Source: Pratylenchus scribneri (taxonomy: Eukaryota > Nematoda > Chromadorea > Rhabditida > Pratylenchidae). Taken from it: a DNA stretch of 64,000 nucleotides. Positions 40,001-64,000 of this stretch are shown here, piece after piece; within the stretch, counting starts at the first letter, position 1; each line of letters opens with the position of its first letter. The notes beneath the pieces were generated by a model. That model had not been told where the DNA came from, made no database searches, and saw only the letters and a list, made by a program, of their open reading frames with translations. The position numbers were made by a program, and so were the translations under genes. The DNA is taken from assembly GCA_030063045.1 (NCBI GenBank), contig JAQSEB010000155.1, positions 1,471,668-1,535,667 on the forward strand, read 5' to 3'.

Positions 40001-40001
40001 G

Positions 40002-40200
40002 GTAAGTGTATGATTAGTGGGGGATACTGTAGAAAAAATGGGCGAATAGGTAAGGAATTTAGGGGCTATGGTTAGGATAGGGGGCCTGGGGATTACTGTT
40101 GACAAAAGAAAAAGAAAACTAAGATAGATTAGAAAAACCAGAGGAAATTAGAGAAAAAATAGCCATTAGATATTGGCTAGAAAAATTTTAAAAATTTCAG
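40002..40200 (+). other. Splice-donor/acceptor-like pair in each satellite unit (first unit)
   Basis: ACAG followed by GTAAGTG is an almost perfect U1-type donor at 40,002. AAATTTCAG at 40,192-40,200 matches the nematode acceptor consensus. They would define a 199-base intron in every unit if the G-rich strand is transcribed. This is pattern evidence only. Confidence 0.35.
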
Positions 40201-40298
40201 ATAAGCCAATAGGTATCGAATTAGCCAATGGATATCGGCTTACCGCATAGGTATGGGCTAAGCGCTAGGGTATGGGCTAGGGTTAGGGGTTAGGGTTA
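40161..40298 (+). repeat. 19-bp degenerate sub-repeats grading into TTAGGG (first unit)
   Basis: Within each unit 19-bp blocks follow one another: AGCCATTAGATATTGGCTA (40,161), then AGCCAATAGGTATCGAATT (40,204), AGCCAATGGATATCGGCTT (40,223), ACCGCATAGGTATGGGCTA (40,242) and AGCGCTAGGGTATGGGCTA (40,261). These lead directly into GGGTTAGGGGTTAGGGTTA (40,280). Copies become progressively more G-rich and TTAGGG-like from left to right. The same block recurs every 697 bp. Confidence 0.8.
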
Positions 40299-40320
40299 GG
40301 GTTAGGTAGGTAGGTAGGGG
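40266..40320 (+). other. G-rich TTAGGG block, G-quadruplex candidate (first unit)
   Basis: TTAGGG at 40,283, 40,290 and 40,296, with CTAGGG before and TTAGG plus three TAGG steps and a final GGGG after. More than four G-runs of at least three, with loops of 3-4 bases, satisfy the usual quadruplex pattern on the plus strand. A second G-rich patch (GGGGCTATGG through GGGGGCCTGGGG) lies at about 40,062-40,091. Both repeat in every unit. Confidence 0.85.
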
Positions 40321-40436
40321 ATAAATTTTGAAAAATCAAAAAAAATCGAGAAAAAATAAGAAAAATCGTGAAAAAACATGGAATTTCCCTAGGCAATTTT
40401 CAAAATAAAAAAGGAAAAAATTTAAAAAAATTCGCT

Positions 40437-40461
40437 CTGGCCAGCCTGACGGCATGGCCAG
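40437..40461 (+). other. Conserved GC-rich hairpin in each satellite unit (first unit)
   Basis: CTGGCCA-GCC pairs with GGC-A-TGGCCAG: a 10-bp stem with one bulged A and a TGAC tetraloop. It is the only GC-rich palindrome in an otherwise A-rich half of the unit, and it recurs at 697-bp intervals. It could be a protein-binding site or an RNA structure. Confidence 0.75.
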
Positions 40462-43400
40462 TCTAGAAAAATTCTTTTTGGGAAAAAAGAGCCGAAAAAA
40501 ATCAATAAAAAAAAGCCAGAAAAAAGGAGGCTTGAAAAACTAAGAAATTCGATCAAAAAAATGAAAAAATTAGATTAGAAAATTGGAAAAAAAAATTAGA
40601 AAAAGACTAGAAAATGGAGATTAGAAATAGACTAAGAAAGTTAGATTAGAAAAGAGTACTGTAAAGAGAGAAGAAGAGGAGAAAAAAGGAGCAGACAGGT
40701 AAGTGTATGATTAGTGGGGGATACTGTAGAAAAAATGGGCGAATAGGTAAGGAATTTAGGGGCTATGGTTAGGATAGGGGGCCTGGGGATTACTGTTGAC
40801 AAAAGAAAAAGAAAACTAAGATAGATTAGAAAAACCAGAGGAAATTAGAGAAAAAATAGCCATTAGATATTGGCTAGAAAAATTTTAAAAATTTCAGATA
40901 AGCCAATAGGTATCGAATTAGCCAATGGATATCGGCTTACCGCATAGGTATGGGCTAAGCGCTAGGGTATGGGCTAGGGTTAGGGGTTAGGGTTAGGGTT
41001 AGGTAGGTAGGTAGGGGATAAATTTTGAAAAATCAAAAAAAATCGAGAAAAAATAAGAAAAATCGTGAAAAAACATGGAATTTCCCTAGGCAATTTTCAA
41101 AATAAAAAAGGAAAAAATTTAAAAAAATTCGCTCTGGCCAGCCTGACGGCATGGCCAGTCTAGAAAAATTCTTTTTGGGAAAAAAGAGCCGAAAAAAATC
41201 AATAAAAAAAAGCCAGAAAAAAGGAGGCTTGAAAAACTAAGAAATTCGATCAAAAAAATGAAAAAATTAGATTAGAAAATTGGAAAAAAAAATTAGAAAA
41301 AGACTAGAAAATGGAGATTAGAAATAGACTAAGAAAGTTAGATTAGAAAAGAGTACTGTAAAGAGAGAAGAAGAGGAGAAAAAAGGAGCAGACAGGTAAG
41401 TGTATGATTAGTGGGGGATACTGTAGAAAAAATGGGCGAATAGGTAAGGAATTTAGGGGCTATGGTTAGGATAGGGGGCCTGGGGATTACTGTTGACAAA
41501 AGAAAAAGAAAACTAAGATAGATTAGAAAAACCAGAGGAAATTAGAGAAAAAATAGCCATTAGATATTGGCTAGAAAAATTTTAAAAATTTCAGATAAGC
41601 CAATAGGTATCGAATTAGCCAATGGATATCGGCTTACCGCATAGGTATGGGCTAAGCGCTAGGGTATGGGCTAGGGTTAGGGGTTAGGGTTAGGGTTAGG
41701 TAGGTAGGTAGGGGATAAATTTTGAAAAATCAAAAAAAATCGAGAAAAAATAAGAAAAATCGTGAAAAAACATGGAATTTCCCTAGGCAATTTTCAAAAT
41801 AAAAAAGGAAAAAATTTAAAAAAATTCGCTCTGGCCAGCCTGACGGCATGGCCAGTCTAGAAAAATTCTTTTTGGGAAAAAAGAGCCGAAAAAAATCAAT
41901 AAAAAAAAGCCAGAAAAAAGGAGGCTTGAAAAACTAAGAAATTCGATCAAAAAAATGAAAAAATTAGATTAGAAAATTGGAAAAAAAAATTAGAAAAAGA
42001 CTAGAAAATGGAGATTAGAAATAGACTAAGAAAGTTAGATTAGAAAAGAGTACTGTAAAGAGAGAAGAAGAGGAGAAAAAAGGAGCAGACAGGTAAGTGT
42101 ATGATTAGTGGGGGATACTGTAGAAAAAATGGGCGAATAGGTAAGGAATTTAGGGGCTATGGTTAGGATAGGGGGCCTGGGGATTACTGTTGACAAAAGA
42201 AAAAGAAAACTAAGATAGATTAGAAAAACCAGAGGAAATTAGAGAAAAAATAGCCATTAGATATTGGCTAGAAAAATTTTAAAAATTTCAGATAAGCCAA
42301 TAGGTATCGAATTAGCCAATGGATATCGGCTTACCGCATAGGTATGGGCTAAGCGCTAGGGTATGGGCTAGGGTTAGGGGTTAGGGTTAGGGTTAGGTAG
42401 GTAGGTAGGGGATAAATTTTGAAAAATCAAAAAAAATCGAGAAAAAATAAGAAAAATCGTGAAAAAACATGGAATTTCCCTAGGCAATTTTCAAAATAAA
42501 AAAGGAAAAAATTTAAAAAAATTCGCTCTGGCCAGCCTGACGGCATGGCCAGTCTAGAAAAATTCTTTTTGGGAAAAAAGAGCCGAAAAAAATCAATAAA
42601 AAAAAGCCAGAAAAAAGGAGGCTTGAAAAACTAAGAAATTCGATCAAAAAAATGAAAAAATTAGATTAGAAAATTGGAAAAAAAAATTAGAAAAAGACTA
42701 GAAAATGGAGATTAGAAATAGACTAAGAAAGTTAGATTAGAAAAGAGTACTGTAAAGAGAGAAGAAGAGGAGAAAAAAGGAGCAGACAGGTAAGTGTATG
42801 ATTAGTGGGGGATACTGTAGAAAAAATGGGCGAATAGGTAAGGAATTTAGGGGCTATGGTTAGGATAGGGGGCCTGGGGATTACTGTTGACAAAAGAAAA
42901 AGAAAACTAAGATAGATTAGAAAAACCAGAGGAAATTAGAGAAAAAATAGCCATTAGATATTGGCTAGAAAAATTTTAAAAATTTCAGATAAGCCAATAG
43001 GTATCGAATTAGCCAATGGATATCGGCTTACCGCATAGGTATGGGCTAAGCGCTAGGGTATGGGCTAGGGTTAGGGGTTAGGGTTAGGGTTAGGTAGGTA
43101 GGTAGGGGATAAATTTTGAAAAATCAAAAAAAATCGAGAAAAAATAAGAAAAATCGTGAAAAAACATGGAATTTCCCTAGGCAATTTTCAAAATAAAAAA
43201 GGAAAAAATTTAAAAAAATTCGCTCTGGCCAGCCTGACGGCATGGCCAGTCTAGAAAAATTCTTTTTGGGAAAAAAGAGCCGAAAAAAATCAATAAAAAA
43301 AAGCCAGAAAAAAGGAGGCTTGAAAAACTAAGAAATTCGATCAAAAAAATGAAAAAATTAGATTAGAAAATTGGAAAAAAAAATTAGAAAAAGACTAGAA

Positions 43401-46400
43401 AATGGAGATTAGAAATAGACTAAGAAAGTTAGATTAGAAAAGAGTACTGTAAAGAGAGAAGAAGAGGAGAAAAAAGGAGCAGACAGGTAAGTGTATGATT
43501 AGTGGGGGATACTGTAGAAAAAATGGGCGAATAGGTAAGGAATTTAGGGGCTATGGTTAGGATAGGGGGCCTGGGGATTACTGTTGACAAAAGAAAAAGA
43601 AAACTAAGATAGATTAGAAAAACCAGAGGAAATTAGAGAAAAAATAGCCATTAGATATTGGCTAGAAAAATTTTAAAAATTTCAGATAAGCCAATAGGTA
43701 TCGAATTAGCCAATGGATATCGGCTTACCGCATAGGTATGGGCTAAGCGCTAGGGTATGGGCTAGGGTTAGGGGTTAGGGTTAGGGTTAGGTAGGTAGGT
43801 AGGGGATAAATTTTGAAAAATCAAAAAAAATCGAGAAAAAATAAGAAAAATCGTGAAAAAACATGGAATTTCCCTAGGCAATTTTCAAAATAAAAAAGGA
43901 AAAAATTTAAAAAAATTCGCTCTGGCCAGCCTGACGGCATGGCCAGTCTAGAAAAATTCTTTTTGGGAAAAAAGAGCCGAAAAAAATCAATAAAAAAAAG
44001 CCAGAAAAAAGGAGGCTTGAAAAACTAAGAAATTCGATCAAAAAAATGAAAAAATTAGATTAGAAAATTGGAAAAAAAAATTAGAAAAAGACTAGAAAAT
44101 GGAGATTAGAAATAGACTAAGAAAGTTAGATTAGAAAAGAGTACTGTAAAGAGAGAAGAAGAGGAGAAAAAAGGAGCAGACAGGTAAGTGTATGATTAGT
44201 GGGGGATACTGTAGAAAAAATGGGCGAATAGGTAAGGAATTTAGGGGCTATGGTTAGGATAGGGGGCCTGGGGATTACTGTTGACAAAAGAAAAAGAAAA
44301 CTAAGATAGATTAGAAAAACCAGAGGAAATTAGAGAAAAAATAGCCATTAGATATTGGCTAGAAAAATTTTAAAAATTTCAGATAAGCCAATAGGTATCG
44401 AATTAGCCAATGGATATCGGCTTACCGCATAGGTATGGGCTAAGCGCTAGGGTATGGGCTAGGGTTAGGGGTTAGGGTTAGGGTTAGGTAGGTAGGTAGG
44501 GGATAAATTTTGAAAAATCAAAAAAAATCGAGAAAAAATAAGAAAAATCGTGAAAAAACATGGAATTTCCCTAGGCAATTTTCAAAATAAAAAAGGAAAA
44601 AATTTAAAAAAATTCGCTCTGGCCAGCCTGACGGCATGGCCAGTCTAGAAAAATTCTTTTTGGGAAAAAAGAGCCGAAAAAAATCAATAAAAAAAAGCCA
44701 GAAAAAAGGAGGCTTGAAAAACTAAGAAATTCGATCAAAAAAATGAAAAAATTAGATTAGAAAATTGGAAAAAAAAATTAGAAAAAGACTAGAAAATGGA
44801 GATTAGAAATAGACTAAGAAAGTTAGATTAGAAAAGAGTACTGTAAAGAGAGAAGAAGAGGAGAAAAAAGGAGCAGACAGGTAAGTGTATGATTAGTGGG
44901 GGATACTGTAGAAAAAATGGGCGAATAGGTAAGGAATTTAGGGGCTATGGTTAGGATAGGGGGCCTGGGGATTACTGTTGACAAAAGAAAAAGAAAACTA
45001 AGATAGATTAGAAAAACCAGAGGAAATTAGAGAAAAAATAGCCATTAGATATTGGCTAGAAAAATTTTAAAAATTTCAGATAAGCCAATAGGTATCGAAT
45101 TAGCCAATGGATATCGGCTTACCGCATAGGTATGGGCTAAGCGCTAGGGTATGGGCTAGGGTTAGGGGTTAGGGTTAGGGTTAGGTAGGTAGGTAGGGGA
45201 TAAATTTTGAAAAATCAAAAAAAATCGAGAAAAAATAAGAAAAATCGTGAAAAAACATGGAATTTCCCTAGGCAATTTTCAAAATAAAAAAGGAAAAAAT
45301 TTAAAAAAATTCGCTCTGGCCAGCCTGACGGCATGGCCAGTCTAGAAAAATTCTTTTTGGGAAAAAAGAGCCGAAAAAAATCAATAAAAAAAAGCCAGAA
45401 AAAAGGAGGCTTGAAAAACTAAGAAATTCGATCAAAAAAATGAAAAAATTAGATTAGAAAATTGGAAAAAAAAATTAGAAAAAGACTAGAAAATGGAGAT
45501 TAGAAATAGACTAAGAAAGTTAGATTAGAAAAGAGTACTGTAAAGAGAGAAGAAGAGGAGAAAAAAGGAGCAGACAGGTAAGTGTATGATTAGTGGGGGA
45601 TACTGTAGAAAAAATGGGCGAATAGGTAAGGAATTTAGGGGCTATGGTTAGGATAGGGGGCCTGGGGATTACTGTTGACAAAAGAAAAAGAAAACTAAGA
45701 TAGATTAGAAAAACCAGAGGAAATTAGAGAAAAAATAGCCATTAGATATTGGCTAGAAAAATTTTAAAAATTTCAGATAAGCCAATAGGTATCGAATTAG
45801 CCAATGGATATCGGCTTACCGCATAGGTATGGGCTAAGCGCTAGGGTATGGGCTAGGGTTAGGGGTTAGGGTTAGGGTTAGGTAGGTAGGTAGGGGATAA
45901 ATTTTGAAAAATCAAAAAAAATCGAGAAAAAATAAGAAAAATCGTGAAAAAACATGGAATTTCCCTAGGCAATTTTCAAAATAAAAAAGGAAAAAATTTA
46001 AAAAAATTCGCTCTGGCCAGCCTGACGGCATGGCCAGTCTAGAAAAATTCTTTTTGGGAAAAAAGAGCCGAAAAAAATCAATAAAAAAAAGCCAGAAAAA
46101 AGGAGGCTTGAAAAACTAAGAAATTCGATCAAAAAAATGAAAAAATTAGATTAGAAAATTGGAAAAAAAAATTAGAAAAAGACTAGAAAATGGAGATTAG
46201 AAATAGACTAAGAAAGTTAGATTAGAAAAGAGTACTGTAAAGAGAGAAGAAGAGGAGAAAAAAGGAGCAGACAGGTAAGTGTATGATTAGTGGGGGATAC
46301 TGTAGAAAAAATGGGCGAATAGGTAAGGAATTTAGGGGCTATGGTTAGGATAGGGGGCCTGGGGATTACTGTTGACAAAAGAAAAAGAAAACTAAGATAG

Positions 46401-49400
46401 ATTAGAAAAACCAGAGGAAATTAGAGAAAAAATAGCCATTAGATATTGGCTAGAAAAATTTTAAAAATTTCAGATAAGCCAATAGGTATCGAATTAGCCA
46501 ATGGATATCGGCTTACCGCATAGGTATGGGCTAAGCGCTAGGGTATGGGCTAGGGTTAGGGGTTAGGGTTAGGGTTAGGTAGGTAGGTAGGGGATAAATT
46601 TTGAAAAATCAAAAAAAATCGAGAAAAAATAAGAAAAATCGTGAAAAAACATGGAATTTCCCTAGGCAATTTTCAAAATAAAAAAGGAAAAAATTTAAAA
46701 AAATTCGCTCTGGCCAGCCTGACGGCATGGCCAGTCTAGAAAAATTCTTTTTGGGAAAAAAGAGCCGAAAAAAATCAATAAAAAAAAGCCAGAAAAAAGG
46801 AGGCTTGAAAAACTAAGAAATTCGATCAAAAAAATGAAAAAATTAGATTAGAAAATTGGAAAAAAAAATTAGAAAAAGACTAGAAAATGGAGATTAGAAA
46901 TAGACTAAGAAAGTTAGATTAGAAAAGAGTACTGTAAAGAGAGAAGAAGAGGAGAAAAAAGGAGCAGACAGGTAAGTGTATGATTAGTGGGGGATACTGT
47001 AGAAAAAATGGGCGAATAGGTAAGGAATTTAGGGGCTATGGTTAGGATAGGGGGCCTGGGGATTACTGTTGACAAAAGAAAAAGAAAACTAAGATAGATT
47101 AGAAAAACCAGAGGAAATTAGAGAAAAAATAGCCATTAGATATTGGCTAGAAAAATTTTAAAAATTTCAGATAAGCCAATAGGTATCGAATTAGCCAATG
47201 GATATCGGCTTACCGCATAGGTATGGGCTAAGCGCTAGGGTATGGGCTAGGGTTAGGGGTTAGGGTTAGGGTTAGGTAGGTAGGTAGGGGATAAATTTTG
47301 AAAAATCAAAAAAAATCGAGAAAAAATAAGAAAAATCGTGAAAAAACATGGAATTTCCCTAGGCAATTTTCAAAATAAAAAAGGAAAAAATTTAAAAAAA
47401 TTCGCTCTGGCCAGCCTGACGGCATGGCCAGTCTAGAAAAATTCTTTTTGGGAAAAAAGAGCCGAAAAAAATCAATAAAAAAAAGCCAGAAAAAAGGAGG
47501 CTTGAAAAACTAAGAAATTCGATCAAAAAAATGAAAAAATTAGATTAGAAAATTGGAAAAAAAAATTAGAAAAAGACTAGAAAATGGAGATTAGAAATAG
47601 ACTAAGAAAGTTAGATTAGAAAAGAGTACTGTAAAGAGAGAAGAAGAGGAGAAAAAAGGAGCAGACAGGTAAGTGTATGATTAGTGGGGGATACTGTAGA
47701 AAAAATGGGCGAATAGGTAAGGAATTTAGGGGCTATGGTTAGGATAGGGGGCCTGGGGATTACTGTTGACAAAAGAAAAAGAAAACTAAGATAGATTAGA
47801 AAAACCAGAGGAAATTAGAGAAAAAATAGCCATTAGATATTGGCTAGAAAAATTTTAAAAATTTCAGATAAGCCAATAGGTATCGAATTAGCCAATGGAT
47901 ATCGGCTTACCGCATAGGTATGGGCTAAGCGCTAGGGTATGGGCTAGGGTTAGGGGTTAGGGTTAGGGTTAGGTAGGTAGGTAGGGGATAAATTTTGAAA
48001 AATCAAAAAAAATCGAGAAAAAATAAGAAAAATCGTGAAAAAACATGGAATTTCCCTAGGCAATTTTCAAAATAAAAAAGGAAAAAATTTAAAAAAATTC
48101 GCTCTGGCCAGCCTGACGGCATGGCCAGTCTAGAAAAATTCTTTTTGGGAAAAAAGAGCCGAAAAAAATCAATAAAAAAAAGCCAGAAAAAAGGAGGCTT
48201 GAAAAACTAAGAAATTCGATCAAAAAAATGAAAAAATTAGATTAGAAAATTGGAAAAAAAAATTAGAAAAAGACTAGAAAATGGAGATTAGAAATAGACT
48301 AAGAAAGTTAGATTAGAAAAGAGTACTGTAAAGAGAGAAGAAGAGGAGAAAAAAGGAGCAGACAGGTAAGTGTATGATTAGTGGGGGATACTGTAGAAAA
48401 AATGGGCGAATAGGTAAGGAATTTAGGGGCTATGGTTAGGATAGGGGGCCTGGGGATTACTGTTGACAAAAGAAAAAGAAAACTAAGATAGATTAGAAAA
48501 ACCAGAGGAAATTAGAGAAAAAATAGCCATTAGATATTGGCTAGAAAAATTTTAAAAATTTCAGATAAGCCAATAGGTATCGAATTAGCCAATGGATATC
48601 GGCTTACCGCATAGGTATGGGCTAAGCGCTAGGGTATGGGCTAGGGTTAGGGGTTAGGGTTAGGGTTAGGTAGGTAGGTAGGGGATAAATTTTGAAAAAT
48701 CAAAAAAAATCGAGAAAAAATAAGAAAAATCGTGAAAAAACATGGAATTTCCCTAGGCAATTTTCAAAATAAAAAAGGAAAAAATTTAAAAAAATTCGCT
48801 CTGGCCAGCCTGACGGCATGGCCAGTCTAGAAAAATTCTTTTTGGGAAAAAAGAGCCGAAAAAAATCAATAAAAAAAAGCCAGAAAAAAGGAGGCTTGAA
48901 AAACTAAGAAATTCGATCAAAAAAATGAAAAAATTAGATTAGAAAATTGGAAAAAAAAATTAGAAAAAGACTAGAAAATGGAGATTAGAAATAGACTAAG
49001 AAAGTTAGATTAGAAAAGAGTACTGTAAAGAGAGAAGAAGAGGAGAAAAAAGGAGCAGACAGGTAAGTGTATGATTAGTGGGGGATACTGTAGAAAAAAT
49101 GGGCGAATAGGTAAGGAATTTAGGGGCTATGGTTAGGATAGGGGGCCTGGGGATTACTGTTGACAAAAGAAAAAGAAAACTAAGATAGATTAGAAAAACC
49201 AGAGGAAATTAGAGAAAAAATAGCCATTAGATATTGGCTAGAAAAATTTTAAAAATTTCAGATAAGCCAATAGGTATCGAATTAGCCAATGGATATCGGC
49301 TTACCGCATAGGTATGGGCTAAGCGCTAGGGTATGGGCTAGGGTTAGGGGTTAGGGTTAGGGTTAGGTAGGTAGGTAGGGGATAAATTTTGAAAAATCAA

Positions 49401-52400
49401 AAAAAATCGAGAAAAAATAAGAAAAATCGTGAAAAAACATGGAATTTCCCTAGGCAATTTTCAAAATAAAAAAGGAAAAAATTTAAAAAAATTCGCTCTG
49501 GCCAGCCTGACGGCATGGCCAGTCTAGAAAAATTCTTTTTGGGAAAAAAGAGCCGAAAAAAATCAATAAAAAAAAGCCAGAAAAAAGGAGGCTTGAAAAA
49601 CTAAGAAATTCGATCAAAAAAATGAAAAAATTAGATTAGAAAATTGGAAAAAAAAATTAGAAAAAGACTAGAAAATGGAGATTAGAAATAGACTAAGAAA
49701 GTTAGATTAGAAAAGAGTACTGTAAAGAGAGAAGAAGAGGAGAAAAAAGGAGCAGACAGGTAAGTGTATGATTAGTGGGGGATACTGTAGAAAAAATGGG
49801 CGAATAGGTAAGGAATTTAGGGGCTATGGTTAGGATAGGGGGCCTGGGGATTACTGTTGACAAAAGAAAAAGAAAACTAAGATAGATTAGAAAAACCAGA
49901 GGAAATTAGAGAAAAAATAGCCATTAGATATTGGCTAGAAAAATTTTAAAAATTTCAGATAAGCCAATAGGTATCGAATTAGCCAATGGATATCGGCTTA
50001 CCGCATAGGTATGGGCTAAGCGCTAGGGTATGGGCTAGGGTTAGGGGTTAGGGTTAGGGTTAGGTAGGTAGGTAGGGGATAAATTTTGAAAAATCAAAAA
50101 AAATCGAGAAAAAATAAGAAAAATCGTGAAAAAACATGGAATTTCCCTAGGCAATTTTCAAAATAAAAAAGGAAAAAATTTAAAAAAATTCGCTCTGGCC
50201 AGCCTGACGGCATGGCCAGTCTAGAAAAATTCTTTTTGGGAAAAAAGAGCCGAAAAAAATCAATAAAAAAAAGCCAGAAAAAAGGAGGCTTGAAAAACTA
50301 AGAAATTCGATCAAAAAAATGAAAAAATTAGATTAGAAAATTGGAAAAAAAAATTAGAAAAAGACTAGAAAATGGAGATTAGAAATAGACTAAGAAAGTT
50401 AGATTAGAAAAGAGTACTGTAAAGAGAGAAGAAGAGGAGAAAAAAGGAGCAGACAGGTAAGTGTATGATTAGTGGGGGATACTGTAGAAAAAATGGGCGA
50501 ATAGGTAAGGAATTTAGGGGCTATGGTTAGGATAGGGGGCCTGGGGATTACTGTTGACAAAAGAAAAAGAAAACTAAGATAGATTAGAAAAACCAGAGGA
50601 AATTAGAGAAAAAATAGCCATTAGATATTGGCTAGAAAAATTTTAAAAATTTCAGATAAGCCAATAGGTATCGAATTAGCCAATGGATATCGGCTTACCG
50701 CATAGGTATGGGCTAAGCGCTAGGGTATGGGCTAGGGTTAGGGGTTAGGGTTAGGGTTAGGTAGGTAGGTAGGGGATAAATTTTGAAAAATCAAAAAAAA
50801 TCGAGAAAAAATAAGAAAAATCGTGAAAAAACATGGAATTTCCCTAGGCAATTTTCAAAATAAAAAAGGAAAAAATTTAAAAAAATTCGCTCTGGCCAGC
50901 CTGACGGCATGGCCAGTCTAGAAAAATTCTTTTTGGGAAAAAAGAGCCGAAAAAAATCAATAAAAAAAAGCCAGAAAAAAGGAGGCTTGAAAAACTAAGA
51001 AATTCGATCAAAAAAATGAAAAAATTAGATTAGAAAATTGGAAAAAAAAATTAGAAAAAGACTAGAAAATGGAGATTAGAAATAGACTAAGAAAGTTAGA
51101 TTAGAAAAGAGTACTGTAAAGAGAGAAGAAGAGGAGAAAAAAGGAGCAGACAGGTAAGTGTATGATTAGTGGGGGATACTGTAGAAAAAATGGGCGAATA
51201 GGTAAGGAATTTAGGGGCTATGGTTAGGATAGGGGGCCTGGGGATTACTGTTGACAAAAGAAAAAGAAAACTAAGATAGATTAGAAAAACCAGAGGAAAT
51301 TAGAGAAAAAATAGCCATTAGATATTGGCTAGAAAAATTTTAAAAATTTCAGATAAGCCAATAGGTATCGAATTAGCCAATGGATATCGGCTTACCGCAT
51401 AGGTATGGGCTAAGCGCTAGGGTATGGGCTAGGGTTAGGGGTTAGGGTTAGGGTTAGGTAGGTAGGTAGGGGATAAATTTTGAAAAATCAAAAAAAATCG
51501 AGAAAAAATAAGAAAAATCGTGAAAAAACATGGAATTTCCCTAGGCAATTTTCAAAATAAAAAAGGAAAAAATTTAAAAAAATTCGCTCTGGCCAGCCTG
51601 ACGGCATGGCCAGTCTAGAAAAATTCTTTTTGGGAAAAAAGAGCCGAAAAAAATCAATAAAAAAAAGCCAGAAAAAAGGAGGCTTGAAAAACTAAGAAAT
51701 TCGATCAAAAAAATGAAAAAATTAGATTAGAAAATTGGAAAAAAAAATTAGAAAAAGACTAGAAAATGGAGATTAGAAATAGACTAAGAAAGTTAGATTA
51801 GAAAAGAGTACTGTAAAGAGAGAAGAAGAGGAGAAAAAAGGAGCAGACAGGTAAGTGTATGATTAGTGGGGGATACTGTAGAAAAAATGGGCGAATAGGT
51901 AAGGAATTTAGGGGCTATGGTTAGGATAGGGGGCCTGGGGATTACTGTTGACAAAAGAAAAAGAAAACTAAGATAGATTAGAAAAACCAGAGGAAATTAG
52001 AGAAAAAATAGCCATTAGATATTGGCTAGAAAAATTTTAAAAATTTCAGATAAGCCAATAGGTATCGAATTAGCCAATGGATATCGGCTTACCGCATAGG
52101 TATGGGCTAAGCGCTAGGGTATGGGCTAGGGTTAGGGGTTAGGGTTAGGGTTAGGTAGGTAGGTAGGGGATAAATTTTGAAAAATCAAAAAAAATCGAGA
52201 AAAAATAAGAAAAATCGTGAAAAAACATGGAATTTCCCTAGGCAATTTTCAAAATAAAAAAGGAAAAAATTTAAAAAAATTCGCTCTGGCCAGCCTGACG
52301 GCATGGCCAGTCTAGAAAAATTCTTTTTGGGAAAAAAGAGCCGAAAAAAATCAATAAAAAAAAGCCAGAAAAAAGGAGGCTTGAAAAACTAAGAAATTCG

Positions 52401-55400
52401 ATCAAAAAAATGAAAAAATTAGATTAGAAAATTGGAAAAAAAAATTAGAAAAAGACTAGAAAATGGAGATTAGAAATAGACTAAGAAAGTTAGATTAGAA
52501 AAGAGTACTGTAAAGAGAGAAGAAGAGGAGAAAAAAGGAGCAGACAGGTAAGTGTATGATTAGTGGGGGATACTGTAGAAAAAATGGGCGAATAGGTAAG
52601 GAATTTAGGGGCTATGGTTAGGATAGGGGGCCTGGGGATTACTGTTGACAAAAGAAAAAGAAAACTAAGATAGATTAGAAAAACCAGAGGAAATTAGAGA
52701 AAAAATAGCCATTAGATATTGGCTAGAAAAATTTTAAAAATTTCAGATAAGCCAATAGGTATCGAATTAGCCAATGGATATCGGCTTACCGCATAGGTAT
52801 GGGCTAAGCGCTAGGGTATGGGCTAGGGTTAGGGGTTAGGGTTAGGGTTAGGTAGGTAGGTAGGGGATAAATTTTGAAAAATCAAAAAAAATCGAGAAAA
52901 AATAAGAAAAATCGTGAAAAAACATGGAATTTCCCTAGGCAATTTTCAAAATAAAAAAGGAAAAAATTTAAAAAAATTCGCTCTGGCCAGCCTGACGGCA
53001 TGGCCAGTCTAGAAAAATTCTTTTTGGGAAAAAAGAGCCGAAAAAAATCAATAAAAAAAAGCCAGAAAAAAGGAGGCTTGAAAAACTAAGAAATTCGATC
53101 AAAAAAATGAAAAAATTAGATTAGAAAATTGGAAAAAAAAATTAGAAAAAGACTAGAAAATGGAGATTAGAAATAGACTAAGAAAGTTAGATTAGAAAAG
53201 AGTACTGTAAAGAGAGAAGAAGAGGAGAAAAAAGGAGCAGACAGGTAAGTGTATGATTAGTGGGGGATACTGTAGAAAAAATGGGCGAATAGGTAAGGAA
53301 TTTAGGGGCTATGGTTAGGATAGGGGGCCTGGGGATTACTGTTGACAAAAGAAAAAGAAAACTAAGATAGATTAGAAAAACCAGAGGAAATTAGAGAAAA
53401 AATAGCCATTAGATATTGGCTAGAAAAATTTTAAAAATTTCAGATAAGCCAATAGGTATCGAATTAGCCAATGGATATCGGCTTACCGCATAGGTATGGG
53501 CTAAGCGCTAGGGTATGGGCTAGGGTTAGGGGTTAGGGTTAGGGTTAGGTAGGTAGGTAGGGGATAAATTTTGAAAAATCAAAAAAAATCGAGAAAAAAT
53601 AAGAAAAATCGTGAAAAAACATGGAATTTCCCTAGGCAATTTTCAAAATAAAAAAGGAAAAAATTTAAAAAAATTCGCTCTGGCCAGCCTGACGGCATGG
53701 CCAGTCTAGAAAAATTCTTTTTGGGAAAAAAGAGCCGAAAAAAATCAATAAAAAAAAGCCAGAAAAAAGGAGGCTTGAAAAACTAAGAAATTCGATCAAA
53801 AAAATGAAAAAATTAGATTAGAAAATTGGAAAAAAAAATTAGAAAAAGACTAGAAAATGGAGATTAGAAATAGACTAAGAAAGTTAGATTAGAAAAGAGT
53901 ACTGTAAAGAGAGAAGAAGAGGAGAAAAAAGGAGCAGACAGGTAAGTGTATGATTAGTGGGGGATACTGTAGAAAAAATGGGCGAATAGGTAAGGAATTT
54001 AGGGGCTATGGTTAGGATAGGGGGCCTGGGGATTACTGTTGACAAAAGAAAAAGAAAACTAAGATAGATTAGAAAAACCAGAGGAAATTAGAGAAAAAAT
54101 AGCCATTAGATATTGGCTAGAAAAATTTTAAAAATTTCAGATAAGCCAATAGGTATCGAATTAGCCAATGGATATCGGCTTACCGCATAGGTATGGGCTA
54201 AGCGCTAGGGTATGGGCTAGGGTTAGGGGTTAGGGTTAGGGTTAGGTAGGTAGGTAGGGGATAAATTTTGAAAAATCAAAAAAAATCGAGAAAAAATAAG
54301 AAAAATCGTGAAAAAACATGGAATTTCCCTAGGCAATTTTCAAAATAAAAAAGGAAAAAATTTAAAAAAATTCGCTCTGGCCAGCCTGACGGCATGGCCA
54401 GTCTAGAAAAATTCTTTTTGGGAAAAAAGAGCCGAAAAAAATCAATAAAAAAAAGCCAGAAAAAAGGAGGCTTGAAAAACTAAGAAATTCGATCAAAAAA
54501 ATGAAAAAATTAGATTAGAAAATTGGAAAAAAAAATTAGAAAAAGACTAGAAAATGGAGATTAGAAATAGACTAAGAAAGTTAGATTAGAAAAGAGTACT
54601 GTAAAGAGAGAAGAAGAGGAGAAAAAAGGAGCAGACAGGTAAGTGTATGATTAGTGGGGGATACTGTAGAAAAAATGGGCGAATAGGTAAGGAATTTAGG
54701 GGCTATGGTTAGGATAGGGGGCCTGGGGATTACTGTTGACAAAAGAAAAAGAAAACTAAGATAGATTAGAAAAACCAGAGGAAATTAGAGAAAAAATAGC
54801 CATTAGATATTGGCTAGAAAAATTTTAAAAATTTCAGATAAGCCAATAGGTATCGAATTAGCCAATGGATATCGGCTTACCGCATAGGTATGGGCTAAGC
54901 GCTAGGGTATGGGCTAGGGTTAGGGGTTAGGGTTAGGGTTAGGTAGGTAGGTAGGGGATAAATTTTGAAAAATCAAAAAAAATCGAGAAAAAATAAGAAA
55001 AATCGTGAAAAAACATGGAATTTCCCTAGGCAATTTTCAAAATAAAAAAGGAAAAAATTTAAAAAAATTCGCTCTGGCCAGCCTGACGGCATGGCCAGTC
55101 TAGAAAAATTCTTTTTGGGAAAAAAGAGCCGAAAAAAATCAATAAAAAAAAGCCAGAAAAAAGGAGGCTTGAAAAACTAAGAAATTCGATCAAAAAAATG
55201 AAAAAATTAGATTAGAAAATTGGAAAAAAAAATTAGAAAAAGACTAGAAAATGGAGATTAGAAATAGACTAAGAAAGTTAGATTAGAAAAGAGTACTGTA
55301 AAGAGAGAAGAAGAGGAGAAAAAAGGAGCAGACAGGTAAGTGTATGATTAGTGGGGGATACTGTAGAAAAAATGGGCGAATAGGTAAGGAATTTAGGGGC

Positions 55401-58400
55401 TATGGTTAGGATAGGGGGCCTGGGGATTACTGTTGACAAAAGAAAAAGAAAACTAAGATAGATTAGAAAAACCAGAGGAAATTAGAGAAAAAATAGCCAT
55501 TAGATATTGGCTAGAAAAATTTTAAAAATTTCAGATAAGCCAATAGGTATCGAATTAGCCAATGGATATCGGCTTACCGCATAGGTATGGGCTAAGCGCT
55601 AGGGTATGGGCTAGGGTTAGGGGTTAGGGTTAGGGTTAGGTAGGTAGGTAGGGGATAAATTTTGAAAAATCAAAAAAAATCGAGAAAAAATAAGAAAAAT
55701 CGTGAAAAAACATGGAATTTCCCTAGGCAATTTTCAAAATAAAAAAGGAAAAAATTTAAAAAAATTCGCTCTGGCCAGCCTGACGGCATGGCCAGTCTAG
55801 AAAAATTCTTTTTGGGAAAAAAGAGCCGAAAAAAATCAATAAAAAAAAGCCAGAAAAAAGGAGGCTTGAAAAACTAAGAAATTCGATCAAAAAAATGAAA
55901 AAATTAGATTAGAAAATTGGAAAAAAAAATTAGAAAAAGACTAGAAAATGGAGATTAGAAATAGACTAAGAAAGTTAGATTAGAAAAGAGTACTGTAAAG
56001 AGAGAAGAAGAGGAGAAAAAAGGAGCAGACAGGTAAGTGTATGATTAGTGGGGGATACTGTAGAAAAAATGGGCGAATAGGTAAGGAATTTAGGGGCTAT
56101 GGTTAGGATAGGGGGCCTGGGGATTACTGTTGACAAAAGAAAAAGAAAACTAAGATAGATTAGAAAAACCAGAGGAAATTAGAGAAAAAATAGCCATTAG
56201 ATATTGGCTAGAAAAATTTTAAAAATTTCAGATAAGCCAATAGGTATCGAATTAGCCAATGGATATCGGCTTACCGCATAGGTATGGGCTAAGCGCTAGG
56301 GTATGGGCTAGGGTTAGGGGTTAGGGTTAGGGTTAGGTAGGTAGGTAGGGGATAAATTTTGAAAAATCAAAAAAAATCGAGAAAAAATAAGAAAAATCGT
56401 GAAAAAACATGGAATTTCCCTAGGCAATTTTCAAAATAAAAAAGGAAAAAATTTAAAAAAATTCGCTCTGGCCAGCCTGACGGCATGGCCAGTCTAGAAA
56501 AATTCTTTTTGGGAAAAAAGAGCCGAAAAAAATCAATAAAAAAAAGCCAGAAAAAAGGAGGCTTGAAAAACTAAGAAATTCGATCAAAAAAATGAAAAAA
56601 TTAGATTAGAAAATTGGAAAAAAAAATTAGAAAAAGACTAGAAAATGGAGATTAGAAATAGACTAAGAAAGTTAGATTAGAAAAGAGTACTGTAAAGAGA
56701 GAAGAAGAGGAGAAAAAAGGAGCAGACAGGTAAGTGTATGATTAGTGGGGGATACTGTAGAAAAAATGGGCGAATAGGTAAGGAATTTAGGGGCTATGGT
56801 TAGGATAGGGGGCCTGGGGATTACTGTTGACAAAAGAAAAAGAAAACTAAGATAGATTAGAAAAACCAGAGGAAATTAGAGAAAAAATAGCCATTAGATA
56901 TTGGCTAGAAAAATTTTAAAAATTTCAGATAAGCCAATAGGTATCGAATTAGCCAATGGATATCGGCTTACCGCATAGGTATGGGCTAAGCGCTAGGGTA
57001 TGGGCTAGGGTTAGGGGTTAGGGTTAGGGTTAGGTAGGTAGGTAGGGGATAAATTTTGAAAAATCAAAAAAAATCGAGAAAAAATAAGAAAAATCGTGAA
57101 AAAACATGGAATTTCCCTAGGCAATTTTCAAAATAAAAAAGGAAAAAATTTAAAAAAATTCGCTCTGGCCAGCCTGACGGCATGGCCAGTCTAGAAAAAT
57201 TCTTTTTGGGAAAAAAGAGCCGAAAAAAATCAATAAAAAAAAGCCAGAAAAAAGGAGGCTTGAAAAACTAAGAAATTCGATCAAAAAAATGAAAAAATTA
57301 GATTAGAAAATTGGAAAAAAAAATTAGAAAAAGACTAGAAAATGGAGATTAGAAATAGACTAAGAAAGTTAGATTAGAAAAGAGTACTGTAAAGAGAGAA
57401 GAAGAGGAGAAAAAAGGAGCAGACAGGTAAGTGTATGATTAGTGGGGGATACTGTAGAAAAAATGGGCGAATAGGTAAGGAATTTAGGGGCTATGGTTAG
57501 GATAGGGGGCCTGGGGATTACTGTTGACAAAAGAAAAAGAAAACTAAGATAGATTAGAAAAACCAGAGGAAATTAGAGAAAAAATAGCCATTAGATATTG
57601 GCTAGAAAAATTTTAAAAATTTCAGATAAGCCAATAGGTATCGAATTAGCCAATGGATATCGGCTTACCGCATAGGTATGGGCTAAGCGCTAGGGTATGG
57701 GCTAGGGTTAGGGGTTAGGGTTAGGGTTAGGTAGGTAGGTAGGGGATAAATTTTGAAAAATCAAAAAAAATCGAGAAAAAATAAGAAAAATCGTGAAAAA
57801 ACATGGAATTTCCCTAGGCAATTTTCAAAATAAAAAAGGAAAAAATTTAAAAAAATTCGCTCTGGCCAGCCTGACGGCATGGCCAGTCTAGAAAAATTCT
57901 TTTTGGGAAAAAAGAGCCGAAAAAAATCAATAAAAAAAAGCCAGAAAAAAGGAGGCTTGAAAAACTAAGAAATTCGATCAAAAAAATGAAAAAATTAGAT
58001 TAGAAAATTGGAAAAAAAAATTAGAAAAAGACTAGAAAATGGAGATTAGAAATAGACTAAGAAAGTTAGATTAGAAAAGAGTACTGTAAAGAGAGAAGAA
58101 GAGGAGAAAAAAGGAGCAGACAGGTAAGTGTATGATTAGTGGGGGATACTGTAGAAAAAATGGGCGAATAGGTAAGGAATTTAGGGGCTATGGTTAGGAT
58201 AGGGGGCCTGGGGATTACTGTTGACAAAAGAAAAAGAAAACTAAGATAGATTAGAAAAACCAGAGGAAATTAGAGAAAAAATAGCCATTAGATATTGGCT
58301 AGAAAAATTTTAAAAATTTCAGATAAGCCAATAGGTATCGAATTAGCCAATGGATATCGGCTTACCGCATAGGTATGGGCTAAGCGCTAGGGTATGGGCT

Positions 58401-61400
58401 AGGGTTAGGGGTTAGGGTTAGGGTTAGGTAGGTAGGTAGGGGATAAATTTTGAAAAATCAAAAAAAATCGAGAAAAAATAAGAAAAATCGTGAAAAAACA
58501 TGGAATTTCCCTAGGCAATTTTCAAAATAAAAAAGGAAAAAATTTAAAAAAATTCGCTCTGGCCAGCCTGACGGCATGGCCAGTCTAGAAAAATTCTTTT
58601 TGGGAAAAAAGAGCCGAAAAAAATCAATAAAAAAAAGCCAGAAAAAAGGAGGCTTGAAAAACTAAGAAATTCGATCAAAAAAATGAAAAAATTAGATTAG
58701 AAAATTGGAAAAAAAAATTAGAAAAAGACTAGAAAATGGAGATTAGAAATAGACTAAGAAAGTTAGATTAGAAAAGAGTACTGTAAAGAGAGAAGAAGAG
58801 GAGAAAAAAGGAGCAGACAGGTAAGTGTATGATTAGTGGGGGATACTGTAGAAAAAATGGGCGAATAGGTAAGGAATTTAGGGGCTATGGTTAGGATAGG
58901 GGGCCTGGGGATTACTGTTGACAAAAGAAAAAGAAAACTAAGATAGATTAGAAAAACCAGAGGAAATTAGAGAAAAAATAGCCATTAGATATTGGCTAGA
59001 AAAATTTTAAAAATTTCAGATAAGCCAATAGGTATCGAATTAGCCAATGGATATCGGCTTACCGCATAGGTATGGGCTAAGCGCTAGGGTATGGGCTAGG
59101 GTTAGGGGTTAGGGTTAGGGTTAGGTAGGTAGGTAGGGGATAAATTTTGAAAAATCAAAAAAAATCGAGAAAAAATAAGAAAAATCGTGAAAAAACATGG
59201 AATTTCCCTAGGCAATTTTCAAAATAAAAAAGGAAAAAATTTAAAAAAATTCGCTCTGGCCAGCCTGACGGCATGGCCAGTCTAGAAAAATTCTTTTTGG
59301 GAAAAAAGAGCCGAAAAAAATCAATAAAAAAAAGCCAGAAAAAAGGAGGCTTGAAAAACTAAGAAATTCGATCAAAAAAATGAAAAAATTAGATTAGAAA
59401 ATTGGAAAAAAAAATTAGAAAAAGACTAGAAAATGGAGATTAGAAATAGACTAAGAAAGTTAGATTAGAAAAGAGTACTGTAAAGAGAGAAGAAGAGGAG
59501 AAAAAAGGAGCAGACAGGTAAGTGTATGATTAGTGGGGGATACTGTAGAAAAAATGGGCGAATAGGTAAGGAATTTAGGGGCTATGGTTAGGATAGGGGG
59601 CCTGGGGATTACTGTTGACAAAAGAAAAAGAAAACTAAGATAGATTAGAAAAACCAGAGGAAATTAGAGAAAAAATAGCCATTAGATATTGGCTAGAAAA
59701 ATTTTAAAAATTTCAGATAAGCCAATAGGTATCGAATTAGCCAATGGATATCGGCTTACCGCATAGGTATGGGCTAAGCGCTAGGGTATGGGCTAGGGTT
59801 AGGGGTTAGGGTTAGGGTTAGGTAGGTAGGTAGGGGATAAATTTTGAAAAATCAAAAAAAATCGAGAAAAAATAAGAAAAATCGTGAAAAAACATGGAAT
59901 TTCCCTAGGCAATTTTCAAAATAAAAAAGGAAAAAATTTAAAAAAATTCGCTCTGGCCAGCCTGACGGCATGGCCAGTCTAGAAAAATTCTTTTTGGGAA
60001 AAAAGAGCCGAAAAAAATCAATAAAAAAAAGCCAGAAAAAAGGAGGCTTGAAAAACTAAGAAATTCGATCAAAAAAATGAAAAAATTAGATTAGAAAATT
60101 GGAAAAAAAAATTAGAAAAAGACTAGAAAATGGAGATTAGAAATAGACTAAGAAAGTTAGATTAGAAAAGAGTACTGTAAAGAGAGAAGAAGAGGAGAAA
60201 AAAGGAGCAGACAGGTAAGTGTATGATTAGTGGGGGATACTGTAGAAAAAATGGGCGAATAGGTAAGGAATTTAGGGGCTATGGTTAGGATAGGGGGCCT
60301 GGGGATTACTGTTGACAAAAGAAAAAGAAAACTAAGATAGATTAGAAAAACCAGAGGAAATTAGAGAAAAAATAGCCATTAGATATTGGCTAGAAAAATT
60401 TTAAAAATTTCAGATAAGCCAATAGGTATCGAATTAGCCAATGGATATCGGCTTACCGCATAGGTATGGGCTAAGCGCTAGGGTATGGGCTAGGGTTAGG
60501 GGTTAGGGTTAGGGTTAGGTAGGTAGGTAGGGGATAAATTTTGAAAAATCAAAAAAAATCGAGAAAAAATAAGAAAAATCGTGAAAAAACATGGAATTTC
60601 CCTAGGCAATTTTCAAAATAAAAAAGGAAAAAATTTAAAAAAATTCGCTCTGGCCAGCCTGACGGCATGGCCAGTCTAGAAAAATTCTTTTTGGGAAAAA
60701 AGAGCCGAAAAAAATCAATAAAAAAAAGCCAGAAAAAAGGAGGCTTGAAAAACTAAGAAATTCGATCAAAAAAATGAAAAAATTAGATTAGAAAATTGGA
60801 AAAAAAAATTAGAAAAAGACTAGAAAATGGAGATTAGAAATAGACTAAGAAAGTTAGATTAGAAAAGAGTACTGTAAAGAGAGAAGAAGAGGAGAAAAAA
60901 GGAGCAGACAGGTAAGTGTATGATTAGTGGGGGATACTGTAGAAAAAATGGGCGAATAGGTAAGGAATTTAGGGGCTATGGTTAGGATAGGGGGCCTGGG
61001 GATTACTGTTGACAAAAGAAAAAGAAAACTAAGATAGATTAGAAAAACCAGAGGAAATTAGAGAAAAAATAGCCATTAGATATTGGCTAGAAAAATTTTA
61101 AAAATTTCAGATAAGCCAATAGGTATCGAATTAGCCAATGGATATCGGCTTACCGCATAGGTATGGGCTAAGCGCTAGGGTATGGGCTAGGGTTAGGGGT
61201 TAGGGTTAGGGTTAGGTAGGTAGGTAGGGGATAAATTTTGAAAAATCAAAAAAAATCGAGAAAAAATAAGAAAAATCGTGAAAAAACATGGAATTTCCCT
61301 AGGCAATTTTCAAAATAAAAAAGGAAAAAATTTAAAAAAATTCGCTCTGGCCAGCCTGACGGCATGGCCAGTCTAGAAAAATTCTTTTTGGGAAAAAAGA

Positions 61401-64000
61401 GCCGAAAAAAATCAATAAAAAAAAGCCAGAAAAAAGGAGGCTTGAAAAACTAAGAAATTCGATCAAAAAAATGAAAAAATTAGATTAGAAAATTGGAAAA
61501 AAAAATTAGAAAAAGACTAGAAAATGGAGATTAGAAATAGACTAAGAAAGTTAGATTAGAAAAGAGTACTGTAAAGAGAGAAGAAGAGGAGAAAAAAGGA
61601 GCAGACAGGTAAGTGTATGATTAGTGGGGGATACTGTAGAAAAAATGGGCGAATAGGTAAGGAATTTAGGGGCTATGGTTAGGATAGGGGGCCTGGGGAT
61701 TACTGTTGACAAAAGAAAAAGAAAACTAAGATAGATTAGAAAAACCAGAGGAAATTAGAGAAAAAATAGCCATTAGATATTGGCTAGAAAAATTTTAAAA
61801 ATTTCAGATAAGCCAATAGGTATCGAATTAGCCAATGGATATCGGCTTACCGCATAGGTATGGGCTAAGCGCTAGGGTATGGGCTAGGGTTAGGGGTTAG
61901 GGTTAGGGTTAGGTAGGTAGGTAGGGGATAAATTTTGAAAAATCAAAAAAAATCGAGAAAAAATAAGAAAAATCGTGAAAAAACATGGAATTTCCCTAGG
62001 CAATTTTCAAAATAAAAAAGGAAAAAATTTAAAAAAATTCGCTCTGGCCAGCCTGACGGCATGGCCAGTCTAGAAAAATTCTTTTTGGGAAAAAAGAGCC
62101 GAAAAAAATCAATAAAAAAAAGCCAGAAAAAAGGAGGCTTGAAAAACTAAGAAATTCGATCAAAAAAATGAAAAAATTAGATTAGAAAATTGGAAAAAAA
62201 AATTAGAAAAAGACTAGAAAATGGAGATTAGAAATAGACTAAGAAAGTTAGATTAGAAAAGAGTACTGTAAAGAGAGAAGAAGAGGAGAAAAAAGGAGCA
62301 GACAGGTAAGTGTATGATTAGTGGGGGATACTGTAGAAAAAATGGGCGAATAGGTAAGGAATTTAGGGGCTATGGTTAGGATAGGGGGCCTGGGGATTAC
62401 TGTTGACAAAAGAAAAAGAAAACTAAGATAGATTAGAAAAACCAGAGGAAATTAGAGAAAAAATAGCCATTAGATATTGGCTAGAAAAATTTTAAAAATT
62501 TCAGATAAGCCAATAGGTATCGAATTAGCCAATGGATATCGGCTTACCGCATAGGTATGGGCTAAGCGCTAGGGTATGGGCTAGGGTTAGGGGTTAGGGT
62601 TAGGGTTAGGTAGGTAGGTAGGGGATAAATTTTGAAAAATCAAAAAAAATCGAGAAAAAATAAGAAAAATCGTGAAAAAACATGGAATTTCCCTAGGCAA
62701 TTTTCAAAATAAAAAAGGAAAAAATTTAAAAAAATTCGCTCTGGCCAGCCTGACGGCATGGCCAGTCTAGAAAAATTCTTTTTGGGAAAAAAGAGCCGAA
62801 AAAAATCAATAAAAAAAAGCCAGAAAAAAGGAGGCTTGAAAAACTAAGAAATTCGATCAAAAAAATGAAAAAATTAGATTAGAAAATTGGAAAAAAAAAT
62901 TAGAAAAAGACTAGAAAATGGAGATTAGAAATAGACTAAGAAAGTTAGATTAGAAAAGAGTACTGTAAAGAGAGAAGAAGAGGAGAAAAAAGGAGCAGAC
63001 AGGTAAGTGTATGATTAGTGGGGGATACTGTAGAAAAAATGGGCGAATAGGTAAGGAATTTAGGGGCTATGGTTAGGATAGGGGGCCTGGGGATTACTGT
63101 TGACAAAAGAAAAAGAAAACTAAGATAGATTAGAAAAACCAGAGGAAATTAGAGAAAAAATAGCCATTAGATATTGGCTAGAAAAATTTTAAAAATTTCA
63201 GATAAGCCAATAGGTATCGAATTAGCCAATGGATATCGGCTTACCGCATAGGTATGGGCTAAGCGCTAGGGTATGGGCTAGGGTTAGGGGTTAGGGTTAG
63301 GGTTAGGTAGGTAGGTAGGGGATAAATTTTGAAAAATCAAAAAAAATCGAGAAAAAATAAGAAAAATCGTGAAAAAACATGGAATTTCCCTAGGCAATTT
63401 TCAAAATAAAAAAGGAAAAAATTTAAAAAAATTCGCTCTGGCCAGCCTGACGGCATGGCCAGTCTAGAAAAATTCTTTTTGGGAAAAAAGAGCCGAAAAA
63501 AATCAATAAAAAAAAGCCAGAAAAAAGGAGGCTTGAAAAACTAAGAAATTCGATCAAAAAAATGAAAAAATTAGATTAGAAAATTGGAAAAAAAAATTAG
63601 AAAAAGACTAGAAAATGGAGATTAGAAATAGACTAAGAAAGTTAGATTAGAAAAGAGTACTGTAAAGAGAGAAGAAGAGGAGAAAAAAGGAGCAGACAGG
63701 TAAGTGTATGATTAGTGGGGGATACTGTAGAAAAAATGGGCGAATAGGTAAGGAATTTAGGGGCTATGGTTAGGATAGGGGGCCTGGGGATTACTGTTGA
63801 CAAAAGAAAAAGAAAACTAAGATAGATTAGAAAAACCAGAGGAAATTAGAGAAAAAATAGCCATTAGATATTGGCTAGAAAAATTTTAAAAATTTCAGAT
63901 AAGCCAATAGGTATCGAATTAGCCAATGGATATCGGCTTACCGCATAGGTATGGGCTAAGCGCTAGGGTATGGGCTAGGGTTAGGGGTTAGGGTTAGGGT

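Follow-up and report, generated by a model that had tools for sequence, protein, structure and literature searches.

The question raised by this locus is whether the satellite array that closes the window (the whole 64,000-nt stretch of Pratylenchus scribneri DNA that was analysed) is a chromosome end, and if so, how such an end is kept up. The right edge of the window is the last base of the 1.54-Mb contig C155 (1,535,667 bp), so the array reaches the contig end. Here 34 full 697-bp units and another 60 bases match the reference unit with 0 mismatches, and in a self-comparison of the window array every base past 40,001 equals the base 697 positions further on, a regularity far beyond chance. 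The array opens with a slightly divergent half unit, and BLAST with the doubled unit shows 97% identity over 39,896-40,939. Between 40,001 and 64,000, TTAGGG occurs 140 times and CCCTAA, TTAGGC and GCCTAA 0 times each, and the G-rich strand runs 3' outward. The exact 697-bp spacing of 34 full units, the presence of TTAGGG with no TTAGGC, and a G strand directed towards the window end had all been stated in the original prediction, and all hold to the base. The assembled number of 34 units is uncertain as a true count, because published P. scribneri reads average ~7 kb, with a maximum of 44 kb. Rfam gave no match at gathering threshold in 36,000-43,000, and five of the eight listed ORFs of at least 130 aa had no Pfam match. 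Features of the window are collected in Table 1.

Table 1. Features of the array and its proximal flank, in window coordinates.
Feature	Position	Strand	Basis
Proximal flank; its homologue flanks another array-bearing end, C258R	37569..39125	+	89% identity, 1,602 aligned columns, C258:21424-22926
~770 bp between flank and array, absent from C258R (J directly at the break there)	39126..39895	.	BLAST breakpoints
First half unit, slightly divergent (J element, unit positions 347-697); inner array boundary	39896..40242	+	BLAST of doubled unit
34 full 697-bp units + 60 bases, all identical, up to contig end	40243..64000	+	Unit comparison, contig end
Reference unit for all comparisons	50001..50697	+	
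Degenerate TTAGGG block of reference unit; G-quadruplex-type motif, outward strand	50026..50078	+	Motif search
Terminal block, inside which the contig stops (cut after ...GGGTTAGGGT)	63966..64000	+	
J core (29 bp); 35 copies in all, 697 bp apart, from this one to 63757-63785	40059..40087	+	Genome pattern search
GC-rich inverted repeat, one in each unit	40435..40463	.	

Related units of 667-702 bp form arrays at 20 contig ends of the P. scribneri assembly (19 read to the last base, one placed by coordinates), with sizes of up to 45 kb (C122). Four arrays are interstitial (C2, C4, C8 and C15); C15L was rejected as a terminal array, as ~108 bp of other sequence lies beyond it. No array was found at 67 other sampled contig ends. 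A search of the genome for U blocks gave 380 + 491, and a rough count of these against the arrays named among the matches listed (up to 100 per search) suggests that about nine further arrays are unplaced. One further pattern search had no match, and a similarity search with a U unit as DNA query scored one candidate only. Several of these observations speak against reading contig ends as chromosome ends: the interstitial and unplaced arrays, the ten termini off the block (below), and the possibility that a contig end is a mere read end, the reads being short relative to the arrays. The opposite ends of contigs with a terminal array, free of arrays in 5/5 cases, are likewise either unexplained on such a reading or unassembled.

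The G strand points outward at all 20 array-bearing contig ends. Polarity was nevertheless dropped as a clean proof of terminal position, because 18 of the 20 ends were found through J, which always lies 5' of its array, making the argument circular for them. C7 and C32 are the only array ends found without J, so that polarity is tested there without circularity, and both have telomeric polarity.

Within most arrays the units are nearly uniform: in 14 of 19 arrays neighbouring units share an identity of 0.991 or more, the remaining five being mixed or dimeric (0.889-0.915). Between arrays, unit identity is mostly 79-97%, falling to 61-67% between the two unit classes. Homology of the flanking DNA has little bearing on this, with unit identity of 0.836 for the 11 pairs of ends with homologous flanks versus 0.819 for the 109 pairs without (identity as high in 7,008/20,000 permutations). 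All four unit pairs that are at least 0.97 alike lack homologous flanks (1.5-3.9 kb of flank compared), and two pairs of ends, C155R/C258R and C61R/C29L, have homologous flanks but different array classes. Array type does not track flanking-DNA homology, and the arrays are mostly homogenised within ends, different between ends and apparently exchanged between non-homologous ends.

Nine of 19 contig termini gather in a 27-bp stretch of the unit's degenerate TTAGGG block, and ten fall outside the block. In 200,000 random simulations the observed maximum was reached 0, 6, 2 and 206 times for intervals of 20, 25, 30 and 60 bp, respectively. The stretch homologous to the block is the best conserved part of the unit among U-type arrays, and its strand carries a G4-type sequence motif in 21/21 representative units. 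Outside the block, the 29-bp J core is the longest invariant run across 18 aligned J rows. For the conserved inverted repeat, covariation is only suggestive: among 500 shuffles, the paired cells and double changes were reached by 14, the covariation score by 87 and the further pair types by all 500.

The arrays are probably a chromosome-end (telomere-like) satellite of P. scribneri, capped by the block and maintained by recombination. Contig termini would then be physical chromosome ends, bearing long arrays whose composite units measure 667-702 bp and each contain a single degenerate TTAGGG block, G strand outward. The physical end would commonly lie inside a block, which may act as the terminal cap, and the ~640 bp between blocks would serve as spacer. 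Arrays may be lengthened and homogenised within an end by rolling-circle copying, unequal sister exchange or break-induced replication, with occasional replacement of an array by copying from another end; ends would be kept up in this way and not by a telomerase that copies a short template.

The original prediction had proposed a candidate composite telomere or subtelomere with recombination-type maintenance. That much of its interpretation is supported, polarity included, by the related arrays at 20 contig ends, the nine termini in the block, and the homogenisation of most arrays per end, decoupled from flank ancestry. Arrays lying mainly at internal positions had been named as what would count against a telomeric role, and this applies only to a minority of the arrays that were placed (four interstitial versus 20 at contig ends, with about nine unplaced). 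Two further parts fell: the host is P. scribneri and not Meloidogyne, and TTAGGG as such is not diagnostic of ends. TTAGGG-type sites with up to two mismatches number 959 + 1011 in the genome (reversed control 34 + 24), and many of the 100 matches listed lie deep inside contigs, ruling the motif out as a marker of ends.

It is unlikely, if not implausible, that the satellite is subtelomeric and adjoins true telomeres of another repeat, canonical or not, which would be missing from the assembly because reads cannot be anchored across long identical arrays. Reads averaging ~7 kb against arrays as long as that of C122 are compatible with such a loss, and (TTAGGC)n and telomerase are reported for Pratylenchus penetrans in the available part of PMC10844300. 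However, (TTAGGC)4 with up to two mismatches was found 0 + 0 times in the 227-Mb assembly (reversed control 2 + 0), a search of the assembled sequence as distinct from the reads, and the gathering of nine termini in one 27-bp stretch is unlike random read ends in a longer array. The telomerase profile PF12009 had no match at E values up to 1, as was likewise the case in 14/14 control genomes, so that this search carries no weight for or against.

Distinctly less credible is an ordinary interstitial satellite seen through an artefact, in which contigs break in unassemblable satellite and the termini cluster because the G-quadruplex-forming block is a preferred breakage site in DNA or library molecules. 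The complete interstitial arrays, the G4-type motif in every representative unit and the circular polarity of the J-found ends would all fit. However, C7 and C32 show telomeric polarity independently of J, every assembled array crosses many blocks unbroken, and the 67 other ends include no array of opposite polarity, against an expectation of only about two. Very improbable is a still active telomerase that adds TTAGGG-like repeats to the block at the very end, with recombination only amplifying the unit behind: the block is telomere-like with termini inside it, and telomerase is reported in P. penetrans (same source), but the block is degenerate and not pure hexamer, the window array is free of TTAGGC, and at 8/8 block-positioned ends tested the last 90-199 bases recur verbatim elsewhere in their own array, as exact copies of an internal block.

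On balance it seems slightly favoured that P. scribneri gave up the canonical telomere. Its chromosomes would end inside a degenerate TTAGGG block, which occurs once in each unit of a ~690-bp satellite, in arrays homogenised per end and exchanged between ends by recombination, and (TTAGGC)n would have been abandoned in, or before, part of Pratylenchus.

Composite telomeric repeats are already published for polyploid Meloidogyne (Mota et al. 2024, PMC10844300; Mi-Tel, Dai et al. 2023, PMC10630426), where loss of (TTAGGC)n and telomerase is reported (PMC10844300). In the available portions of these accounts the two systems share complex, G-rich, oriented units, long arrays at contig ends, usually on one side of a contig only, absence of (TTAGGC)n, unit clusters that vary from end to end, and a proposed recombination-type upkeep. 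They differ in the unit (~250-300 bp of three motifs in Meloidogyne versus 667-702 bp here), in the host (polyploid mitotic Meloidogyne versus another genus) and in the evidence, the Meloidogyne repeats being characterised by telomeric FISH signal and transcription and the P. scribneri arrays from assembly sequence. Motif-1 and the 66-bp Mi-Tel are likened to the P. scribneri unit by description and not by motif letters. TTAGGG has 0 occurrences in the main text of either paper, and neither a TTAGGG block nor block-positioned termini are mentioned in their available portions. Composite end satellites of this kind, originally put forward as a candidate undescribed system, are already published, but their occurrence in P. 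scribneri and the block-positioned termini look new. According to the available part of Shakya et al. 2025 (PMC12643312), Meloidogyne hapla likewise has a non-canonical end repeat, at one or both ends, and no canonical telomere, but its unit is a short, simple 16-mer and not a composite of ~690 bp.

If the chromosome-end reading is true, abandonment of (TTAGGC)n is not confined to Meloidogyne. A second Pratylenchus species, lacking the canonical repeat but having a composite satellite at its ends, would shift the loss reported there or add another to it. Since P. penetrans reportedly retains (TTAGGC)n and telomerase, telomerase-type and satellite-type ends could then be compared between two species of the same genus. 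That termini stop at a constant position in a short TTAGGG block, of which each unit has one, amounts to a testable statement on capping without simple repeats, and the homologous end pairs with different arrays would be a record of array replacement at base-pair resolution. The telomeres of Chironomus and Anopheles are complex tandem repeats, with satellite arrays of hundreds of bases, upkeep by recombination or gene conversion, and end-specific subfamilies; these insect ends are alike in working, a likeness not based on sequence. TALT survivors of C. elegans and type I survivors of yeast amplify, at their ends, a segment that is itself not telomeric but contains short tracts of telomere sequence, and their ends lie inside such a tract. 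These too are alike in working, but the survivors are laboratory telomerase mutants with canonical repeats, whereas in P. scribneri this is apparently the normal state of the species.

The original prediction described 34 full units at 697-bp spacing, carrying TTAGGG and lacking TTAGGC, with the G strand toward the window end, and all three points are borne out. From 40,243, 34 full 697-bp units show zero mismatches in a unit comparison, followed by 60 further bases. The window spans 1,471,668-1,535,667 of contig C155 (JAQSEB010000155.1), whose last base is the right edge of the window. The array starts with a half unit at 39,896, and the stretch 39,896-40,939 is 97% like the reference unit (50,001-50,697, plus strand) in a BLAST search with the doubled unit. 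Motif counts in 40,001-64,000 are 140 for TTAGGG and 0 for TTAGGC, CCCTAA and GCCTAA. GC skew in this part is 0.44-0.48, versus -0.12 to +0.21 upstream in the window, with the G-rich strand toward the contig end. G4-type motifs number 35 on the outward and 0 on the other strand in 39,896-64,000, and 0 and 1, respectively, before 39,896.

The assembly (227,248,964 bp in 276 contigs; reported as 276 contigs and 227.24 Mb from PacBio HiFi reads and hifiasm, with reads of the library used averaging 7,038 and reaching 43,956 bases, PMC10138993) was searched with the 697-bp unit, and 10-kb stretches were inspected. The satellite family recognised in this way consists of two unit classes: J-type, like the window array, and U-type, with units of 667-697 bp that are about 64-67% like the window unit. 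Units of the J-type arrays at the right end of contig C61 (C61R) and the left end of C275 (C275L) are 91% identical to the window unit by BLAST. The second half of the window unit (J, positions 347-697) is also found as a single copy in 19 contigs, 82-94% identical to window J and inward of a present or former array; 15 of these arrays are terminal and three interstitial (C2, C4 and C15), and the remaining contig, C185, has no intact block (the degenerate TTAGGG stretch of each unit) after J in the 10 kb examined. An alignment of 18 J rows, from which the first copy in C155 and those in C91 and C215 were omitted, has a 29-bp J core as its longest invariant run; this core has 107 genome matches at up to 3 mismatches, 100 of them listed, and its reversed control has 0. 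Arrays at C7R and C32L and within C8 were detected through unit or block searches, without J: at up to 3 mismatches, the 67 J-core matches of the forward strand, listed in full, include none for C7, and the 33 of 40 reverse-strand matches listed include none for C32 or C8. C54 and C272 bear further arrays, outside the terminal and interstitial tallies. The short interstitial arrays are possibly traces of end fusions or insertions. J copies at C185:233143 and C15:2431621 have no adjoining array and lie deep in the contig or reversed near an end; these may be relics of former ends.

Arrays of the end satellite and spaced TTAGGG-type sites in the P. scribneri assembly (R and L, right and left contig ends).
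Feature	Location	Unit	J-core copies	Remark
J-type array	C155R	697 bp	35	
J-type array	C61R	~700 bp	24	reaches contig end at 615,891
J-type array	C275L	~686 bp	at least 21	
Terminal arrays with single J, right ends (6)	C126, C58, C258, C248, C251, C120			
Terminal arrays with single J, left ends (9)	C128, C235, C257, C49, C29, C122, C48, C91, C215			
Short interstitial array	C2:90.8-96.2 kb			
Short interstitial array	C4 near 1.27 Mb			
Short interstitial array	C8:2252317-2258358			array read without its flanks
Short interstitial array	C15:108-6,000			
TTAGGG-type pairs, 57-bp spacing (examples)	C3:285177 and 285234; C9:482010 and 482067; C43:4496 and 4553			

The G strand points outward at 20 of 20 array ends, 19 read to the last contig base and C7R placed by coordinates. 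Since J is always found on the 5' side of an array, polarity is tested without circularity by C7 and C32 alone. No array of either polarity was seen at 67 other sampled contig ends (38 starts and 29 right ends, 58 of them in contigs without a known array), the sole trace being a 20-bp A/T-run match at the right end of C4, taken as chance. Interstitial arrays would predict about two opposite-polarity ends among 67, so this absence is weak evidence. Among these 67 are the opposite ends of five terminal-array contigs (C155, C61, C7, C32 and C49), which carry no array (0/5). A karyotype catalogue gives 12 chromosomes and ploidy 2 (PMC11555361).

The 19 termini compared are unevenly placed over the unit. 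Nine (C155R, C126R, C58R, C120R, C48L, C215L, C122L, C257L and C32L) stop within -18 to +8 of a single point in the block, and the remaining ten are scattered; adding C7R by arithmetic would put 10 of 20 in the block. In a scan statistic, the observed maximum was matched by 0, 6, 2 and 206 of 200,000 random placements for windows of 20, 25, 30 and 60 bp, respectively. The terminal bases recur verbatim elsewhere in their own array at all eight block ends tested (90 bases at C120R, at least 199 at the other seven), thus nothing untemplated is seen at these ends. The simplest reading is that the clustered termini are physical chromosome ends. Alternatively, they may arise by breakage at G-quadruplex-forming blocks; a G4-type motif is present on the outward strand in 21 of 21 representative units and on the opposite strand in none.

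In 14 of 19 arrays, identity between neighbouring units is 0.991-1.000; the other five (C58, C248, C122, C48 and C91) are mixed or dimeric, with values of 0.889-0.915. Between arrays, most pairs of representative U units are at 0.79-0.97 (C48L, C257L and C15 mutually 0.98-1.00), and J-type versus U-type identity is 0.61-0.67. When the DNA just inward of J was compared among 16 ends, over 1.5-3.9 kb per end, 11 of the 120 pairs had at least 300 aligned bp (76-91% identical) and define groups of homologous flanks. Unit identity is uncoupled from these groups, at 0.836 for the 11 homologous-flank pairs versus 0.819 for the 109 others (7,008 of 20,000 permutations as high). Only four pairs have units at least 0.97 alike (C126R/C49L, C257L/C48L, C257L/C15 and C48L/C15), all without homologous flanks within the 1.5-3.9 kb compared. 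The window's own end shows array replacement: 37,569-39,125 matches the C258R flank at 89% identity. In C258R, J begins right at the flank break, with a U-type array about 1.4 kb farther on; in C155R, 770 bp of different sequence separate this break from the J-type array. C61R (J-type) and C29L (U-type) form a second homologous-flank pair with unlike classes (flanks 82% alike). Although the assembly is described as diploid, the four subtelomeric flanks of C126R, C15, C2 and C215L resemble one another at 84-91%; they could be homeologues or duplicated subtelomeres.

The block (50,026-50,078 in the reference unit) holds the best-conserved 50-column window of the U arrays (0.972; whole block as delimited 0.915, columns outside listed features 0.780). 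The block has been lost from the single-copy J's, which have 0-1 TTAGGG or CTAGGG in the 200 bases where the three J-type units have 3-5, and 1 of 19 single-copy J's has a G4 motif; we infer that the amplifying units are those retaining a block. Both classes share a GC-rich inverted repeat in which 95.5% of cells pair on six distinct rows, with two pairs changed on both sides. Pairing plus double changes was reached by 14 of 500 shuffles and the covariation score by 87 of 500, which is not unusual, so that covariation is suggestive only. In all 21 representative units, from both classes, the outward strand carries a single splice-donor-like CAGGTAAG(T/A), which may be relevant to an array transcript.

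A search for (TTAGGC)4 at up to 2 mismatches gave 0 matches in the whole assembly (reversed control, 2). A PF12009 profile search gave 0 matches at E ≤1 and equally 0 in all 14 control genomes, and is thus uninformative. About 1,970 TTAGGG-type sites are found genome-wide at up to 2 mismatches; many of those listed lie deep within contigs. Two variants recur among them, and some sites are paired at 57-bp spacing. These sites appear to be a dispersed TTAGGG-bearing repeat distinct from the end satellite. Mota et al. (PMC10844300) report that P. penetrans has both telomerase and (TTAGGC)n and that Meloidogyne has neither. Among the papers retrieved on Pratylenchus and telomeres, only this work, on P. 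penetrans, and general nematode reviews are relevant by title and passages.

The mechanism proposed for chromosome ends starts from four observations: identity within arrays, its decoupling from flanks, unlike arrays on homologous flanks and clustered termini. A broken or shortened end would recombine with its own array or with a unit circle and so be re-lengthened, yielding long runs of identical units. An end would occasionally be capped by copying another end's array, and a block close to the 3' end would serve as the protected terminus. What we infer here is the involvement of circles or break-induced replication, the capping and a lack of telomerase action. This mechanism resembles that of C. 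elegans TALT survivors, yeast type I survivors and Chironomus telomeres. The main text of the P. scribneri genome paper (PMC10138993) does not contain 'telomer', and no published report of a composite end satellite in this species was found, preprints aside. Composite telomeric satellites are already published for polyploid Meloidogyne (PMC10844300; PMC10630426), and we call the P. scribneri satellite a variant of these.
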